Shown in pieces: positions 43,584 to 53,300 of a stretch of DNA of 64,000 nucleotides; within the stretch, counting starts at the first letter, position 1; each line of letters starts with the position of its first letter. Source of the stretch: Candidatus Poribacteria bacterium (GTDB taxonomy: Bacteria > Poribacteria > WGA-4E > WGA-3G); the NCBI GenBank assembly GCA_958295945.1, contig OY282386.1, positions 1,367,371 through 1,431,370 of the forward strand, written 5' to 3'. A program made the position numbers and the translations under genes. The notes beneath the pieces were generated by a model, which saw nothing but the letters and a program-made list of their open reading frames with translations, made no database searches and had not been told where the DNA came from.

Positions 43584-46160
43584 TTATGTTGTATCTGCTA
43601 ATGTGTCACTCAATGCATCCCAGAAAGGATTCTCATCGTTTTCATTGTAAAATGGTAAACCAATCAAACGGAATTTTTTGCTATCAACTGTTAGAAGTTT
43701 GTTTTTAAATTCACCAGTTATCTCTTTCATGAATCTTTCTTTCCATTGGTCAGTGGGTTGTAAATATTTTCCTTTGGGTTCTACGAAAAATTGATAACAA
43801 ACGAAATTCCCTTTTTTTTCTTGTAGGAATAGTGCAAAATCTGGATAGAATGCTTGTCCATCAGAGAAGTTATAGATTGCAAAATGCATTTCGTTACGTA
43901 GTAGGTAGATTTCATTATAATGTGCTGCTAATGTCTTTACCTTCCTGATGAGCAAATCTACGAATGCTTTTTCTTCACTCGTGCCGTAGAGAGAGTTGAA
44001 TGGAAACCAATCTTTGTCCTCAAACTGCCGATCAATAGTTGCACGCGGGTTTCGCGCATCAAATTTCAAGAGTTTATCTTTGAATACATCATGCACCTGT
44101 TTTGGTCCAAAGTGTTTTGTTCCTTGGTATTCAGTAACTTGTTCTCGGACTTCAGTTTCAATTTGACTTAACAACCCTTGGCATGCGGAGAGTTTTGCAG
44201 AACGATTCTCATCTAAATTCAATAGGTTTCCCTTGAATGTGATAGCCAATCCACCTAAATAGTTCCCTGAAGTCATAAATTCACTTATAGATGTTAAGTG
44301 TGGACAATACTTCTTAATCGATGCAAAGGTGAAAAACGGATTACAAGCAATAGCGGTTCTAAGGATATTCTGTTCAATTTCATTAACAGGAATATCCCAC
44401 CCATCATCGTTTTGCAGCATCGGTGTTGTTCCTTCCTCCATTGCAGTAGTTTCTCCCGCAGAACCTGTAGGAATAACGTGCTCATAGTTCTTCTGATTCA
44501 CACTGAGATTGGCAAGGTCAGCGAAAGATTGGACATGTTGGTAATCCTTCGGGACCTGTTCATTAAGCCAGATAACCCCATATTTGTAAAATTTAGTTTT
44601 CTTGAATTTGTCCTTTAATTTCAACTCACGGGTAACGCCTCGTTCATCCATCATACCTTGGTCAATGAGTGCAGTTCTAATTTCCGATATGTAACGTGAA
44701 TCGTGGATGCTATGGTAATGAAGTTCTTCTAACACGCGCAATTCATGGTTTAGCTCCTCATCAAATTTTCGACGGAATCTATCTGGATAGTCTGGTAAGA
44801 CAAATGGAAAATAGCGTGCACCGCGTCCGATAAGTTGTGCTTCGGATGTAGTCGTTGATCCGATTTTTCCCTTCCCTGAGTCGCGGGTTTCATAACAACG
44901 GACAATATCAAACAGGTTTAGCACGTCCCATCCTTCGTTGAGTTTTTGCACGGCAAAGATAGCACGTATCGGATTATCTTTGTCTTCAAGTGTGTTTACT
45001 TGCATCTGATAGTTTTTCTTTGCGTCTTCGTCGTTTACCGAGAGACAATATGCTTCCTGAAATTCGGATTTCAGACGTTGGACAAGTTGTTCGGGACCGA
45101 TGCCGTTTTCATCAAAGAAACGGAATGCCTGTTGAACAATCTCAAGTGGAGATTTCTGAATACCTTGAATTTGGTCATGGGTTAGTCCATCAATCAATTT
45201 GTGGAAGTTCTCCTTGTTTTCTTCCGATTGCGCGATTGTCTTCTGTGCTTTAAACAGTATGACAGGCTTTAGGTTAATTCCGTTTTTCCCCGCCACCTCC
45301 CGCTTGTATTGGTTGAGAATGAGTGCCTGCAAGATACGTGAGTCCTGATCTAAATCGGAATGTACAAGCACAACCTCTTTTGAATACTTATCGTTACGAT
45401 AATCCACAAGGTCGTAGCGATTGATAATTTTATTCCGATACTTTTCTACCATTGCAGGTGTCGCATAGTCATGCGTTGCTGTAAATTCCAACAGTAGATT
45501 AGCGTCATTAGACTTAAAGATATGTTCTACTGTGTTTTCCCAACTTTCAAATAACGTTATTCCTGTCTGTGTCTTTGTGCTAACATTCATGTGATGCGCT
45601 TCATCAGCTAACAACACGATTTGCTGCTCAGCGAAATTCTCATAAGTTAAGGCGTTCTCCTTTTCTGAATTCATATCAGTATGAAGTTGCTGGATTGTCG
45701 TGAAGCAAATATTGATGTCGTTTTCGTTGACTCCATCAAAATTGTCCACCTTCGTTACGGTGACAGGTTTACCTTCAAAACGGATGTCTTGACTGAAAAG
45801 GTATTTTGTTGCACGTGGGTCGAGAAAGTTATTCTTTGTCTTTTCAATGATATTAGTGGAGTTGACAAAAAAGAGGAAATTTCGGTATCCTTGTTCGTAA
45901 AGATAGAGAATCAGCCCCGCCATGATAAGCGTCTTACCACTGCCAGTTGCCATGTTGAATAACAAGTGTAGCGGTTTTTCCTTCTCTTCAAAATCATTTT
46001 CAAAACAGAGGAGAAACCGTACGAACGCTTCTTCTTGATACTCTCGGAGTTCAAACGTGGGGTTAAGGTTGTCTGTGATATATGCGGGAACTTCGGTTTC
46101 TCGGAGGGTTTTCCGTCCGAATTCCTCTAATACTGTTTCGTGTAAAAATTTTTCGGGCAT
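43584..46160 (-). CDS. res: Type III restriction enzyme, Res subunit
   Basis: The 858-residue protein is a superfamily 2 helicase-translocase with Walker A NMATGSGKT (70-77) and the DEAH-like LLADEAHHMN. It also has later helicase motifs (FAVQKLNEGWDV and IGRGARYFPF), and a C-terminal PD-(D/E)XK nuclease (FYPDFALFLQ and VEPKGKYL). It cuts unmodified DNA together with Mod. It overlaps the upstream 984-residue gene by a TAATG junction, so it is translated as part of one operon. Confidence 0.93.
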   Translation of the reverse strand: MPEKFLHETVLEEFGRKTLRETEVPAYITDNLNPTFELREYQEEAFVRFLLCFENDFEEKEKPLHLLFNMATGSGKTLIMAGLILYLYEQGYRNFLFFVNSTNIIEKTKNNFLDPRATKYLFSQDIRFEGKPVTVTKVDNFDGVNENDINICFTTIQQLHTDMNSEKENALTYENFAEQQIVLLADEAHHMNVSTKTQTGITLFESWENTVEHIFKSNDANLLLEFTATHDYATPAMVEKYRNKIINRYDLVDYRNDKYSKEVVLVHSDLDQDSRILQALILNQYKREVAGKNGINLKPVILFKAQKTIAQSEENKENFHKLIDGLTHDQIQGIQKSPLEIVQQAFRFFDENGIGPEQLVQRLKSEFQEAYCLSVNDEDAKKNYQMQVNTLEDKDNPIRAIFAVQKLNEGWDVLNLFDIVRCYETRDSGKGKIGSTTTSEAQLIGRGARYFPFVLPDYPDRFRRKFDEELNHELRVLEELHYHSIHDSRYISEIRTALIDQGMMDERGVTRELKLKDKFKKTKFYKYGVIWLNEQVPKDYQHVQSFADLANLSVNQKNYEHVIPTGSAGETTAMEEGTTPMLQNDDGWDIPVNEIEQNILRTAIACNPFFTFASIKKYCPHLTSISEFMTSGNYLGGLAITFKGNLLNLDENRSAKLSACQGLLSQIETEVREQVTEYQGTKHFGPKQVHDVFKDKLLKFDARNPRATIDRQFEDKDWFPFNSLYGTSEEKAFVDLLIRKVKTLAAHYNEIYLLRNEMHFAIYNFSDGQAFYPDFALFLQEKKGNFVCYQFFVEPKGKYLQPTDQWKERFMKEITGEFKNKLLTVDSKKFRLIGLPFYNENDENPFWDALSDTLADTT

Positions 46161-49114
46161 TACTTTTCCAAAATTTGTTTGTCTTTTTCAAACATAAGGT
46201 CCATATATTCCATTTTATCAGCTCGGAGTAGGTTGTTAAGGGCGTGCTTAGCATTCTCATATACAATCATGTCTGTGCTGTTAAGACCTGTTTTTAGGAT
46301 AGTTTTTGCTTCCTCTGTCTGAATGTAGAGGTTTTTATTACGAATATCATTGGTTAGCTTAAAGAAGCACTCAACTACCTCAGCGGTATGTTTTGGAAGC
46401 ATTTGACATAACTCCTTTAGATAAATTTCCCAATCTTCTACTTCGCAATCTTTTGCTTTGCATACATCTATGACTTTAGAATATGATTTCAATCGCCATT
46501 TAGTTTCCATACACTCGGCTTGTAACCAATAGGTAAAATATCGGAGTTCTGTCGGCTCTTCCTGTTTAATGCGCCATTTAAAGAATTTCTTTACTCTTTC
46601 TTTCATATTTGGGTCTAAGTGTTTTTCGGTGTTTCGTAAGCGGTGGCCGATATCCTTGAACAAGTTTGACCAATGTTCTCGTTTTTTATCAGTTTGCTGG
46701 TAAAATTGTTCAAGTAGACTTTCTTGACCTTTAAGTGGGAACATTTCCCACAGATAAAAGTAAAAAAGGCGTTCGCCGAAGACATCAATGGGTTGTCGTG
46801 TGATGAGATCATGCTTTTTGAAATCGGATAAATGTTGTAAGGCAAAATTGAAATCGTCTTTAAGAATTTCAAAGATTTGCTTAACTGCCCCGTTACAAAG
46901 TATAAAGCTGCTAAATGCCGCGTACCATTCTTTCCGTTTACTTTGTGTCTGTGGGAAGAAATCTGATTTATGTGCAATTGTCCACTTCTCATTCAGCCTG
47001 TAAATCGACAGATAATTCTTACCCAAAATGGCATACTCCGGTGGTGTCATAGGGTAATCAGTTTTGGAGCAGAAACGTTTTTCAAGGAGTGTTGTTAATT
47101 CGGGAACTTCACATTGAGGTTCATGTCTGCGCAACCAGAAACCGAATTTGACAAGGTCTTCTAATGCTCGACTTCGCGTATTATTGATACCTTCGGTGAG
47201 TGGGTCATTTTGATATAATCTGTTTGGATTGCTTTTATCCAGGTTCCAATCGGACTGTGTGCAAAGTTTTCTCAGAATCTTTGCGAGTTTTTCTCGGACA
47301 GTAATCGGAACCTCTACATCCTTTTCTAAACATTCGCCGATAAAGTCACCGACAGCTCTACGTGAATTGGTCCAGCTCTTATTCTCGCGGGATTCATCAC
47401 CTTGTCTATAGTCTCTATCGTGTTCTTGGTCTGGATGTGAAAGGACCCATTCACAGAATGTTAACCATTCATTGAGTTGATTGAAGTCCTTATCTTTAAT
47501 CAGTGCTTGCATTGCATAAATCATTACACGGACGTAAATAGGTCTCTCAATTCGTTCACGATTTTCCATCCAGAATTTCAATCTGTTAGCATCAGGTATA
47601 ATTGACTCTCTGAAAACGGTCTGAAATGCATTTGCAAGTATTTCTATGTTAATTTCTACATGATCTTCATTTTCGTAGAATTTATCTTCATCATTCCAAG
47701 CATTTATGAGGTTGAGAAGATTATCATCTGTTAACTTTGCAAGGTCTTTGTGTGAGTAGGGACTGCGTTTAGATACAGATACTCTTTTAACATTTGGTTT
47801 AGATGGGGTATAATCGTCATCAAAGGTTCGAGAATAGTCTTTAGTTTCTAATTCTTGGAGGTAAATTTCATATTTACCAAATAGCACAGGAGCAAAAGGT
47901 GCAAGCTGAATTTGATGGCGATGACGTTGATACTGCAGAAAATCCTCTTCATCAAACTCAATACCTAAAAACTCCATTATCCCCTTTTGGTAATTTGTCT
48001 TTGATGGTCCTGCAAGAATAGCATCAAAGATTTGTGGGAGTTCTTCCTCCGTGAGTAACTTCTCTCCAAAATGCTCACAAGCACGGCGTATCATCAGTTG
48101 GAATTCGTAGGAATGATTCCAGCGATTGTAATATTCAGGTGTTAGAATCAATTCCAGGATCCACGTTTTGGTCTGTTCACTTGGGTATTTAGCATAAAGA
48201 TGGTGGCGTAGGCGTTTGAAAATATTCCAATGTTGATTTCGTAAAGTTTTGTCTAATTCTACTATTGCATTGGATGATTTTTCAAACACCTTTTCGCACG
48301 CAAAGGTCAGTGTATGAACAAGTGTTTCCTCAGAACTCCCACCGTCTTTACCTGGTTTGTAGATGCAAGGACACCATGACCAGGAATTATCTTTCTGATT
48401 ATTAAAATCTTGCTTATGTTTTCGTAAATAGATCATATTTGCTGTAGCATCAATCAAGATACAGGCAACTTTGTAAGGATCGCTTTCTGTGATAGGCCGG
48501 ATACCTTTTAACATTATATCACGGTATTCCCCAGGTAACATGCGGGGTGCAGGTTCAAGCAAAGTATTACTGTCCATAGGATTTTCTATACGGCGTTTCT
48601 GTTTACTCTCTGACTGCGGGTCGGATGCAAACTTAACCAGTATTTTTGCGAGTTCCAATGCTGCCGATGTCTGATTTTCCTTTGTCCAACGCTCCAATAG
48701 ATTTGCATATCTATACGTCCGGAATTGGTGCTCCATACCAGCATAATCAAGTATTTTGTTTTTTAGTTTTACAGAGTATTCTACGGGAAGTTGCAATACA
48801 ATATCTAAAATACCGTCGTAGACGACAGGGTTATCGGTTTCAGGAAGATCTATCAACAACCTGACTACTTCATCGGGTATCTCACTACACACGTTTTTGA
48901 GGTATCGAATCTCTGGCCAGTAAGGGAATTGAATCGTGCCATCATCAAATCGCAGACTTTTCGGAGGATATTTATAACAGCCACGTTCAACAAGCGGTTT
49001 AAACCACAATGGATTTTCTAAACGGGAGAAAAAATACTTACGAGCGGTTACCTTTCTAAGTGAACCAAGAGCCTTATCTATAAGTTCATTGGTTGGTTTC
49101 TTCCAAGATTTCAT
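46160..49114 (-). CDS. Large helical protein inside the type III R-M operon
   Basis: The 984-residue product has no domain I can name. It is rich in Leu, Glu, Lys, Trp and Tyr, and its predicted layout is repeated helix pairs, as in HEAT- or TPR-like scaffolds. I find no Walker motif, HExxH, or nuclease signature. A ribosome site AAGGAG lies five bases before the ATG. It overlaps the 212-residue gene by 29 bases and res by one (TAATG), so expression is coupled to both. The position between mod and res suggests a sensor or scaffold role for the system; this is inference. Confidence 0.75.
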   Translation of the reverse strand: MKSWKKPTNELIDKALGSLRKVTARKYFFSRLENPLWFKPLVERGCYKYPPKSLRFDDGTIQFPYWPEIRYLKNVCSEIPDEVVRLLIDLPETDNPVVYDGILDIVLQLPVEYSVKLKNKILDYAGMEHQFRTYRYANLLERWTKENQTSAALELAKILVKFASDPQSESKQKRRIENPMDSNTLLEPAPRMLPGEYRDIMLKGIRPITESDPYKVACILIDATANMIYLRKHKQDFNNQKDNSWSWCPCIYKPGKDGGSSEETLVHTLTFACEKVFEKSSNAIVELDKTLRNQHWNIFKRLRHHLYAKYPSEQTKTWILELILTPEYYNRWNHSYEFQLMIRRACEHFGEKLLTEEELPQIFDAILAGPSKTNYQKGIMEFLGIEFDEEDFLQYQRHRHQIQLAPFAPVLFGKYEIYLQELETKDYSRTFDDDYTPSKPNVKRVSVSKRSPYSHKDLAKLTDDNLLNLINAWNDEDKFYENEDHVEINIEILANAFQTVFRESIIPDANRLKFWMENRERIERPIYVRVMIYAMQALIKDKDFNQLNEWLTFCEWVLSHPDQEHDRDYRQGDESRENKSWTNSRRAVGDFIGECLEKDVEVPITVREKLAKILRKLCTQSDWNLDKSNPNRLYQNDPLTEGINNTRSRALEDLVKFGFWLRRHEPQCEVPELTTLLEKRFCSKTDYPMTPPEYAILGKNYLSIYRLNEKWTIAHKSDFFPQTQSKRKEWYAAFSSFILCNGAVKQIFEILKDDFNFALQHLSDFKKHDLITRQPIDVFGERLFYFYLWEMFPLKGQESLLEQFYQQTDKKREHWSNLFKDIGHRLRNTEKHLDPNMKERVKKFFKWRIKQEEPTELRYFTYWLQAECMETKWRLKSYSKVIDVCKAKDCEVEDWEIYLKELCQMLPKHTAEVVECFFKLTNDIRNKNLYIQTEEAKTILKTGLNSTDMIVYENAKHALNNLLRADKMEYMDLMFEKDKQILEK

Positions 49115-49724
49115 GAATACTCCTTAGCTGCTCAAGTTCGCTTGCTGCAGCAGCGTATAAAAAACTATCAAGGTTTTGAAAATGCATTTCCACTTCATCA
49201 TAAGTCTCTATAGAAAACTCATCCTCACGTAAGTGAGCATGACCAATAAACCACCTTCTAGCGCATCGCCATTCCTGAGATAAGTTCTCCGGAATACTTT
49301 CTTTATTAGGATAATCCAGAAAAGTGGTAAAAAAAGAACTATCTATCTCTTCAGATCTGAGACGGCCTTCTTTGTGGTCATCAACTAATTTTTTGATCTT
49401 CTTACAGATTTCATTAGGGATCAGATGTCCGTTTTTATCGTTAGTTTCTGTGATATTGTTCCATTCTCCTCCCCATTCATCTTTCCAATCGTCTTGGAAA
49501 TCATTTACAAGATGGACATATTGAACATATCCACTCGTGATCCTGTTTACCGCAGCAGCACACCCGTTCATCAAATCCCTGCTCGCATGGGATACGAAGG
49601 TGATGTAGCCAGCTGATTTCTTGTTTAATAACTCCAATGCCCCTTTGTATACTTCGGCATAAACCGGTAATTCAAGATCGTTGTTTATCCAATTATAGAC
49701 GGTTTGTTGATTTTGTGTGAGCAT
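49086..49724 (-). CDS. 212-residue protein of the type III R-M operon, tentative HEPN-like
   Basis: I do not recognise a family with certainty. The sequence is helical, with FVSHASRDLMNG near residues 43-54 and RCARRWFIGHAHLRE near 153-167. The latter contains R157-x4-H162, the spacing of HEPN ribonuclease active sites, though the residue after Arg is not the usual polar one. HEPN proteins often act as RNases in abortive defence. No clear ribosome site precedes the ATG. It follows mod by 118 bases and overlaps the next gene. Confidence 0.65.
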   Translation of the reverse strand: MLTQNQQTVYNWINNDLELPVYAEVYKGALELLNKKSAGYITFVSHASRDLMNGCAAAVNRITSGYVQYVHLVNDFQDDWKDEWGGEWNNITETNDKNGHLIPNEICKKIKKLVDDHKEGRLRSEEIDSSFFTTFLDYPNKESIPENLSQEWRCARRWFIGHAHLREDEFSIETYDEVEMHFQNLDSFLYAAAASELEQLRSIHEILEETNQ

Positions 49725-49758
49725 TATTTGTTTTCTGGGTATAATTTATTTTTTATAG

Positions 49759-49844
49759 TATAATACAATTGTCAGGGACGAATGGCTCCATGCCACGTGA
49801 TTGCAGGACCGCGGTTCGCGCAATCCTATATCCCTGGCTTTTTT
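49759..49844 (+). ncRNA. Candidate small structured RNA antisense to the mod-212-aa junction
   Basis: On the plus strand a TATAAT at 49759-49764 is followed seven bases later by a structured segment 49771-49838. GUCAGGGA pairs with UCCCUGGC over eight positions. Inside are two hairpins (AUGG/CCAU and GAUUGC/GCAAUC with GGAC/GUUC above it), and UUUUUU follows. The -35 region is poor, so transcription is not certain. It could instead be a mobile hairpin. Confidence 0.4.
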
Positions 49845-51768
49845 ATTCTCCATAAAACGCCTTATTCAGCACCTTATCCTCCGAACTCACCCCAAAATCC
49901 GCATCCTCGATTTCCGAAAGGTTGACATAAAGTTGATTTTTATCCAGCAATTCTACCAATAGGTGTCTCTGTGCTTCAAGGTCGTCAATATCTTTGAAAT
50001 CTTGGACTGCATCTTCAGGCGTTTCTGCGTTGACATACCAGTTCAGGAAAGAGTTTTCGGCGATCTCTTTCCAGAGTACGACAAGCTCATCGGTGGATTG
50101 TGCGGCTTGGATTTTGTCCATATAGGCTTGGTTGTATTGCATGAGTTCACAATAGATGAAATCGCCGACATCTTGCTTTTCTATAACTTTTTCCACTCGC
50201 TGCACGGTAACATTTTCAACATAGTCCATCTGTTCTAACAAAATAAATTTCCGATTTCCATTATCTTGCTTGTTTAATTCTAAAACAGCATGTGCAGTAG
50301 TTCCACTTCCTGTAAAAAAATCCAATATTATGTCGTCTTTACCAGTCATGATTTTCAAGGTATCTATCACAGCATACAGCGACTTGGGATAACTGAACAA
50401 ATTTTTACCCAATAAATTTTTTAGCAGATTAGTGCCTTGGAATTCAGGGAAATACTTTTTATCCATCCACAAATTTTTAATCACTTGTTGCTCACGATAT
50501 TTGTGCAAGATTATTATCTGCCCGTTTTGTTCAACCGCGACAAAATATTCACCGACATTTCGTTTTTCAAATGTCTCTGGCTTGGTTTTCCATGTGAATT
50601 CACGACCATTATCAACTGGGAAAACTTCATGATAGTCATTCTTTTTAGTAAGAGTAATGTCTTTCAAATCATTACTGACGTAAATAGGGTACCAAAATTT
50701 AGGTTTATTGGTTCGTGAAGTATTTGATCTTACCCTGATAAATTTTTCTAAACGATAATTTCCTTCTTCGTCGCGTTTATCAAAGCTTTTGATCTTATCT
50801 TTGTCTAAGGCAACCTTGTTAAACTCAGCTTTAGATATATCCTTTGCATATACCAACATGTGTTCAGTCGCAGCAGAAAAAAATCTCTCGTGTTGCCTAC
50901 CTTTCGGGTTGATGTAGATCGTCACTATCCCTATACGGTTTTCCCGCCCAAATATCTCATCAAGCAATACTCCAAGATAAAATAGTTCTACATGATCAAT
51001 CGTGACCGCCATAAAGCCATCATTCTTCAATAATTCTTTTGCGATTTCTATTCTATTCCTGATAAAAGTTAGCCAGGTGGAGTGTTTAAAATCATTGTTA
51101 TAGGAAAAAGAATCTGTGCTTCCTCCCGTATTATAAGGCGGATCAATATAAATCAGTTTGACCTGTCCGCGGAACTGCTGTTTGAGGGTGTGGAGTGCAA
51201 TGAGGTTATTGCCTTTGATGATAAGGTTTTCGCGGATCGTGCCATTGTCGTCGCGTTTGATCTCGGTAACATCTTGTTCACCTGCAGCGGTGTAGCGTTT
51301 CCAGTTGCTCAGCACCTTCGGATCAAACATCTGGTTGATTTCGTTTTGAGCAAGGATTTCGTTGAAGAATATTTCTTTGCGCTTTTCCTCTTCTTTTGTC
51401 TGCCCGCCTTCAAGCACACAATCTTTGTAGGGCCACACAAGCGAGACTTCCCCGCGTTCACGTAGAAACTTACCATCAATATTCAATCCAATTTTGTTGC
51501 GGAATTGGGTATAGGAATTGGCGAGGAAGTTCTTGGCGGTGATGTAGTCAATGAAGGTGTTGTGGTTGAAAACCCAATGTTCGTCAATTTCATCAAAGAA
51601 GATTGATTTTATCTCTGGTTCGGAAAGGAGTAACCTGATGAGATTCGGGTCAAGTTTCCATGCGTGGTCTTTGACTGCAGCAGGGAGAAGTTCGCCTGAG
51701 TCGTCAACAAATTCGGGCTTCTTTTTAAGGAGTGCGATGAGTTTTTCGTTGAAGTTTTCTTTTGGCAT
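49843..51768 (-). CDS. mod: Type III restriction-modification methyltransferase, Mod subunit
   Basis: The 641-residue beta-class adenine methyltransferase has the catalytic DPPYNTGG (with LIYID before it) and the cofactor motif ILDFFTGSGTTAHAVLELN. The target-recognition region lies between them, about residues 290-450. Mod defines the recognition site of type III systems and modifies one strand. It is the first gene of the operon, with a promoter at 51804-51832. Confidence 0.93.
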   Translation of the reverse strand: MPKENFNEKLIALLKKKPEFVDDSGELLPAAVKDHAWKLDPNLIRLLLSEPEIKSIFFDEIDEHWVFNHNTFIDYITAKNFLANSYTQFRNKIGLNIDGKFLRERGEVSLVWPYKDCVLEGGQTKEEEKRKEIFFNEILAQNEINQMFDPKVLSNWKRYTAAGEQDVTEIKRDDNGTIRENLIIKGNNLIALHTLKQQFRGQVKLIYIDPPYNTGGSTDSFSYNNDFKHSTWLTFIRNRIEIAKELLKNDGFMAVTIDHVELFYLGVLLDEIFGRENRIGIVTIYINPKGRQHERFFSAATEHMLVYAKDISKAEFNKVALDKDKIKSFDKRDEEGNYRLEKFIRVRSNTSRTNKPKFWYPIYVSNDLKDITLTKKNDYHEVFPVDNGREFTWKTKPETFEKRNVGEYFVAVEQNGQIIILHKYREQQVIKNLWMDKKYFPEFQGTNLLKNLLGKNLFSYPKSLYAVIDTLKIMTGKDDIILDFFTGSGTTAHAVLELNKQDNGNRKFILLEQMDYVENVTVQRVEKVIEKQDVGDFIYCELMQYNQAYMDKIQAAQSTDELVVLWKEIAENSFLNWYVNAETPEDAVQDFKDIDDLEAQRHLLVELLDKNQLYVNLSEIEDADFGVSSEDKVLNKAFYGE

Positions 51769-52051: not shown

Positions 52052-53300
52052 TAGTAGACTGTCCACACTAAAATTGTGGGTATAAGCGTTTCAATCGGAT
52101 GCGAGCATCATCCGTTGTCCATTGCCAGTCTACTTGCTTCGCTTCACCATTTCGTCTTTTTCCCAAGCTTGTGTCTCTCGTCGTAGTGTTTCTATATCAG
52201 GGATGCGACGACCTAAACATTGTCGTGTTAGCACGCTAAGTTCTATCTCAGCAATATTCAACCAACTTCCATGTTTGGGCGTATACACGATTTCTAAACG
52301 AGCACATAAACGGCGTGCTTCCGCTGCTGGAAACGCTTTATACAAGGATGAAACTTTATGTGTATTCAGATTATCACAAACTAAAATCACTCGTTTTGCT
52401 TTCGGATACACCTCGTCTAATAGCACCTTTACCTCTTGTGCCCAATCCACCGCAGTCCGACGCTCACGCACAGACACGCCTCTCCACCCCGTTAGTGCTT
52501 CTGTGAATATGAAAAGTTGTGCTGTGCCATTGCGTCTATATTCATTATCTACACGCTTGATTTGACCCGGTTTGAGGGGGCACGGCTCGCGAATATCATC
52601 CCTCAACGTTACAGGTTGTTCATCCATATTCACAACCGGCACATCTGTGTCTAAAGGTTTCTGATAGAGATCAAGCACTTCTTCCATTGCTGCGACAAAC
52701 TCAGCATTTTCGGTGGGTGGGATTACCCATTGTTCCACCAGGTGTGGCTTTAGTTCGTTTTTTTTAGCGTCTGGCGCACTGTTTCAGAACAAATACTCTC
52801 AACGATTTCAAGCTTCACGAATTCCGAAGCAAGAAGACGAAGGGACCACCTGCTATAGCCTTCAGGCGGTTCGCTACAACTCAACGCAATCAGACGCGCT
52901 TCTGCTTCACCATCCAACTTTCGAGGACACGGAGGTGTTTTGCGGTGCACTCGATCCAACGCTCCCGATAAACCCTTTTCTACAAAACGATGCCGCACAT
53001 TGTAAACCGTCTGCTCATGACACGAGTAAGCTTCAGCTATCTGCTTATCAGTCCAGCGAGGACCATTTACATCGGATTTCAATAAGATGTGTGCATGCCT
53101 GATCTTATACGCTTTATTTTCTCCTTTACTTATATACTTGTTTAGTTCTTCACGCTCAATATCAGTTAATTCAACTATATATTTCTTTTTCAAGAGACTA
53201 TTCCTTAAAGAAGTATTTAGGGACATTCTAAAAGAAATACGTCTGTTTGGCAAGTTTTATTGAAGAATATACCTATAATTTTAGTGTAGACACTCCACTA
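52052..53300 (-). mobile_element. IS630-family element with split transposase
   Basis: The 1249-bp element has imperfect 30-bp ends (TAGTAGACTGTCCACACT and TAGTGGAGTGTCTACACT). The 5' frame 52750-53253 encodes the helix-turn-helix half. The 3' frame 52130-52738 encodes the DDE half (VVNMDEQPVTL, LVCDNLNTHK, WLNIAEIEL). A run of eight T on the plus strand (52758-52766 region) lies at the junction, a likely -1 frameshift site. Near its end the DDE frame runs out at MVKRSK, while the usual QVDWQWTTDDAR tail continues in another frame, so this copy is probably damaged. Confidence 0.85.

Follow-up and report, generated by a model that had tools for sequence, protein, structure and literature searches.

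A Type III restriction-modification (RM) operon in the window (the whole 64,000-nt stretch of Candidatus Poribacteria DNA analysed here) carries two additional genes between mod and res. They encode a HEPN-like protein of 212 residues (P212) and an alpha-solenoid of 984 residues (P984) that profile comparison relates to the anti-phage protein DSR1. We consider it reasonably probable (about 0.6) that P212 and P984 together form a self-contained DSR1-type phage sensor in which a HEPN-like RNase replaces the SIR2 NADase, carried in the RM operon as a second line of defence. Type III RM systems, DSR1 solenoids, HEPN domains and the linkage of HEPN domains to RM genes are each already known. In the searchable literature, outside which most subscription journals lie, we came across no account of a HEPN-like effector paired with a DSR1-type solenoid, or of that pair inside RM operons. 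An earlier reading from the sequence only had proposed an undescribed multi-gene defence system here; that description fits the combination, the parts being of known kinds.

The order mod, P212, P984 and res, the shared minus strand and the coordinates that had been proposed for the four genes were all borne out by the open reading frames of the window (Table 1). The assignment of mod and res to Type III RM also stands. Both genes have strong Pfam and PADLOC matches, and by their intact catalytic motifs they are a Type III RM pair: Mod has DPPY at residue 209 and FTGSGTT at residue 485, and Res has the helicase motifs ATGSGKT and DEAHH together with the PD-ExK nuclease pair YPDFALFL/EPKGK. When the Mod protein of the window is compared with those of two other loci (L030, 345-2012; L121, 6160-7845), both ends align well and the middle (approximately residues 286-474) does not, as expected if the target-recognition part had been swapped.

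Table 1. Features of the mod-P212-P984-res locus (positions in the window)
Feature	Position	Strand	Basis
mod, Type III DNA methyltransferase, 641 aa	49843..51768	-	Pfam N6_N4_Mtase 4.5e-31, TypeIII_RM_meth 2e-19; PADLOC MTase_III 4e-146
mod-P212 spacer, strong hairpin (z -3.0)	49725..49842	-	folding; genome copy count = 1
P212, HEPN-like domain, predicted effector, 212 aa	49086..49724	-	AlphaFold helical bundle, nearest solved folds mainly HEPN; iterated HMM
H46-x2-R49 of P212, predicted active-site residues	49578..49589	-	conservation
H164 of P212, conserved	49233..49235	-	conservation
AAGGAG ribosome site of P984, within the end of P212	49120..49125	-	AAGGAG or near variant at the same place in most relatives
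P212/P984 overlap, 29 bases	49086..49114	-	conserved in split relatives
P984, DSR1-type alpha-solenoid, predicted sensor, 984 aa	46160..49114	-	AlphaFold pLDDT 84; hhalign against SIR2-linked Dsr1 solenoids
TAATG stop/start, P984-res junction	46158..46162	-	
res, Type III restriction subunit, 858 aa	43584..46160	-	Pfam ResIII 2.3e-31; PADLOC REase_III 5.4e-138

Both junctions said to tie P212, P984 and res together, the 29-base overlap and the TAATG, are real in the sequence. Relatives in Poribacteria and in the phylum that includes Nitrospira retain the overlap along with the AAGGAG-type ribosome site. The spacer between mod and P212 is much shorter in two Poribacterial loci of the same gene order (L027 and L029) than in the window. 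We found no support for the suggestion that the mod promoter is the only one: a consensus scan returned 21 sigma-70-like sites against 24.0 in shuffled sequence, with weak sites directly ahead of P212 and within it. Directly upstream of mod (52130-53253, minus strand) lies a transposase split across two open reading frames (DDE_3, HTH_32), apparently a broken insertion sequence.

P984 had been described as a helical protein, and AlphaFold predicts an all-helical solenoid resembling those of importin, CAND1 and PP2A-A. Single-sequence scans of Pfam, NCBIfam and PADLOC returned nothing useful for P984, and the window protein by itself is too divergent to come within reach of the PADLOC Dsr1 model. 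At the level of the family, an hhalign comparison with SIR2-linked Dsr1 solenoids gave a probability of 99.3% (E 4.4e-20, 725 columns), and by this profile match P984 is homologous to the C-terminal solenoid, the sensor half, of DSR1. Its relatives match the Dsr1 profile directly. The strongest match (1.3e-255, over the whole solenoid) is a Poribacterial protein in which a HEPN-like N-domain is fused to the solenoid (L044), and others are a fused protein located between mod and res in another Poribacterium (L036, 1e-17) and the relatives in L167 (7.7e-22) and L075 (1.3e-16). A sequence profile search of the PDB with the P984 family found nothing significant, DSR2 included, and the DSR2 chain is absent among the structure matches listed for P984. 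P984 had no relative among the viral contigs and phage records scanned with it.

In the phylum to which Nitrospira belongs, SIR2 domains accompany the same type of solenoid, in split form in L174 and L178 and in fused form in L175, and PADLOC calls the SIR2-bearing relatives in L175 and L174 Dsr1 (7e-249 and 1e-166). SIR2 and HEPN-like domains hold the same position, directly before the same solenoid, and one type of effector has taken the place of the other. In the solenoid tree, the change between split and fused form has happened repeatedly, and the SIR2 forms adjoin the HEPN-like clade of the L044 type. In Haloferax (L043) and Halapricum (L041) the same solenoid stands behind STAND-like or AAA NTPases. 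The Haloferax mediterranei protein, on plasmid pHME132 (L043, 5653-10104), combines apparent N-terminal membrane helices, a STAND-like NTPase and the DSR1-type solenoid in one polypeptide.

Assignment of P212 draws on structure prediction and iterated profile searches. The AlphaFold model is a helical bundle (pLDDT 73), and the solved folds nearest to it are mainly HEPN, namely HepT, Csm6, YutE, AF_0298 and TT1696, with AbiV lower; the VIA-align Z scores against HEPN folds are 7-8, a range within noise for helical bundles. Foldseek alone gave no significant match to the model, and a PDB sequence profile search with the P212 family found nothing significant. Scans of Pfam, NCBIfam and PADLOC with the single sequence gave weak matches only (DUF7257, E 0.15; Cas13a in PADLOC, E 0.003), and neither Pfam nor PADLOC returned a SIR2 match to P212. 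In these three databases no NTPase domain was matched in P212 or P984. Iterated HMM searches unite P212, the N-domains of the fused proteins and a set of divergent N-domains in one family. The link between P212-type and divergent N-domains runs through intermediates, since the direct hhalign comparison is weak (probability 8%). The predicted pPIWI-associating nuclease family PF18165 matches a conserved helix of the fused N-domains weakly, below the cut-off (E ~1e-4).

The R157-x4-H162 motif pointed out by the sequence-only reading is present in the letters but unconserved, with R at position 157 in only 4 of 14 P212-type proteins and H at position 162 in 12. The residues invariant in all 14 are H46, R49, D50, W152, H164 and R166, and conservation across the wider P212/N-domain family extends to Y26, H46, R49, D/E50, W152 and H164. 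The last of these histidines is found in 25 of 25 rows of alignment A4 and in 42 of 42 lettered rows of a wider set. The alignment thus retains H164 and lacks the conserved Rx4-6H of HEPN, R157 not being kept; a 2013 survey of HEPN domains described some families that retain the histidine without the arginine (PMC3710099). We use the term HEPN-like, and no stronger one, because the canonical arginine is missing from the family, and the fold match at noise-level Z likewise counts against a fuller claim. By analogy, P212 is probably an RNase effector. Within Poribacteria, two HEPN-like subfamilies that are only ~15% identical are carried on solenoids that are ~61% identical (window versus L028), so the effector has been exchanged.

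The pair recurs in the phylum. P984 matches, some of them weak, were found in 37 of 85 genomes of Poribacteria, and a Type III res gene lies within 5 kb of 14 of the 23 near-full-length Poribacterial loci, compared with 0.05 expected by chance. The complete mod-P212-P984-res order, whose recurrence had been put forward as a check, is seen in several other Poribacterial genomes (L027, L029 and L032), and in L023 with extra genes between mod and P212. A fused protein stands between mod and res in L028, L030 and L036. Four Poribacterial loci carry the P212/P984 pair with neither mod nor res nearby (L022, L024, L033 and L035), and in another (L031) the module is near a DUF1156/HmaB methylase.

The premise that mod and res are normally adjacent fails in Poribacteria, where, of the 36 loci that have mod upstream of res, only 7 keep the two less than 400 bp apart. 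P212/P984 or the fused form fills the gap in 10 of the 36, in some cases degraded; other contents are an XRE-ImmA/IrrE plus DUF4411 pair, DUF3800, YhgA-like Transposase_31, Uma2 and unknown proteins. With so few adjacent pairs and such varied gap genes, insertion between mod and res is not in itself special in this phylum. The res genes of the window and L030, and of L027 and L028, are 90-93% identical while the cassettes differ, which points to cassette exchange. A distance-correlation test gave an indecisive r 0.45 (P 0.06) for res against P984, and r 0.49 for res against mod.

Two other occupants of the gap were noted in passing. A protein starting MTEERKxELRQLL, usually of 460-525 aa, recurs in nine Poribacterial Type III loci (L113, 4974-6431; L119, 11097-12536; L120, 8654-10192; L134, 8712-10103; L143, 7590-9167; and four more), with no Pfam match for the L113 and L120 proteins and no PADLOC match for that of L113. 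In L114, L120, L121 and L123 the space between mod and res holds a toxin-antitoxin-like arrangement in which a DUF4411 protein comes after an XRE-HTH/ImmA-IrrE protein, and the DUF4411 partner alone was seen at a contig edge in L139.

Outside Poribacteria the module adjoins genes for a PLD-helicase and an Eco57I methylase in L072, L176 and L170, as does the SIR2 version in L175; it lies beside Type I hsdR-M-S genes in L075 and beside a distinct Type III mod-res pair in L167, and no RM genes were present in the stretch read around L168, L169, L171 and L172. These counts of RM linkage are small numbers without a matched control.

We propose that the P984 solenoid would hold P212 inactive until a phage component, perhaps a structural protein as in the case of DSR2 and the tail tube, binds and changes the P212-P984 complex. 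Released P212 would then cut RNA and stop the infection. Carriage between mod and res would allow both layers to be expressed and inherited together, and the module would act as a second line against phages whose DNA evades cleavage. The earlier proposal of a sensor scaffold plus an RNase is thus upheld as far as homology goes, P984 being a solenoid of the DSR1 type and P212 occupying the SIR2 position as a HEPN-like domain, and the RNase activity is predicted. Copies without RM genes argue that the module works alone, and together with the variety of RM partners and the turnover of cassettes they lead us to favour an autonomous second line. Three points make an autonomous trigger no less likely than the restriction-failure trigger first suggested: there are copies without RM genes, unrelated genes fill the same gap, and DSR1 has been described as a system of one gene. 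Nor should abortive suicide be assumed, as DSR1 is reported in one review to stop phage without cell death (PMC10952713).

The same linkage to RM genes can be read as coupling of the kind known from PrrC, a HEPN-type nuclease whose gene lies in the EcoprrI Type Ic RM operon (PMC3710099). Contact with Mod/Res through P984 would silence P212, a phage anti-restriction protein would free it, and the four genes would be one two-stage system. The tight operon with its overlaps, the strong linkage to several RM types and the precedent of PrrC and of the 16 or more HEPN clades with RM linkage (PMC3710099) speak for such coupling. However, many copies have no RM genes nearby, the RM partners are of several unrelated types, unrelated genes occupy the same slot, and the cassette differs beside res genes that are 90-93% identical (window/L030, L027/L028); we regard this coupling as possible but rather unlikely. 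Also rather unlikely is a broader proposal, in which DSR1 solenoids would serve generally as sensing platforms for exchangeable effectors (SIR2, two HEPN-like types and STAND/AAA NTPases), and the RM-linked branch would monitor RM itself, so that RNA would be cut once Type I, Type III or Eco57I restriction enzymes are lost or inhibited.

It is improbable that P212/P984 is a toxin-antitoxin-like stability or anti-plasmid element hitch-hiking in RM operons, with P984 as inhibitor and not phage sensor. A two-gene layout with the effector first and its partner overlapping would fit such an element, as would the XRE-ImmA/IrrE plus DUF4411 pair in the same slot of relatives, but the homology of P984 is to the sensing part of a protein published as anti-phage, and in many copies a single polypeptide contains both effector and solenoid, which is unusual for such pairs. 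Least probable in our view is that the two proteins are accessory Type III subunits, scaffolding Mod/Res or binding DNA, with no RNase activity. They do share an operon with mod and res, the canonical HEPN arginine is missing, and scaffold roles are common among solenoids; against this, H46, R49, D/E50 and H164 are strictly conserved, the module is also found without RM genes and beside unrelated RM types, and seven related mod-res pairs have no insert.

These results link an uncharacterised pair embedded in RM operons to an anti-phage sensor already known, which is reused here with another kind of effector domain, and whatever activates the HEPN-like version would offer a second route to the DSR1 trigger. 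The pair also gives defence-gene finders a family that they now miss, because the window P984 falls below the Dsr1 model, and in Type III systems of Poribacteria the gap between mod and res is a passenger-gene slot worth mining.

Among known systems, the RM-linked HEPN families of the 2013 survey share linkage to RM operons with P212, and some keep the histidine without the arginine as it does, but none of those tabulated is described with a DSR1-type solenoid (PMC3710099). PrrC/EcoprrI is likewise a nuclease-type gene embedded in an RM operon, comparable to P212 as a predicted second line of defence; it differs in having an ABC ATPase regulatory domain and Type I partners, whereas P212/P984 has a DSR1-type solenoid and no NTPase. 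The absence of an NTPase domain also separates P212/P984 from STAND NTPase/Avs systems, to which the Haloferax protein L043 offers a likeness, as it carries the same solenoid attached to a STAND-like NTPase (Dsr1 profile 2.1e-33, Avs4 8.2e-6). In DSR2, binding of the phage tail tube protein by the C-terminal solenoid turns on the N-terminal effector (PMC11087589, PMC10973363), and by analogy P984 may sense a phage protein and switch on its attached effector, although the effector of DSR2 is SIR2; the C-terminal regions of DSR1 and DSR2 themselves have limited sequence similarity (PMC10973363). The closest system is DSR1 (defense-associated sirtuin 1; PADLOC Dsr1, PDLC04166). The window module differs from it in being two genes inside a Type III RM operon, with a P984 too divergent for the Dsr1 model and a HEPN-like P212 where DSR1 has a SIR2 NADase; it shares with DSR1 the homologous C-terminal solenoid, the effector domain directly before it and the occurrence of both split and fused forms.
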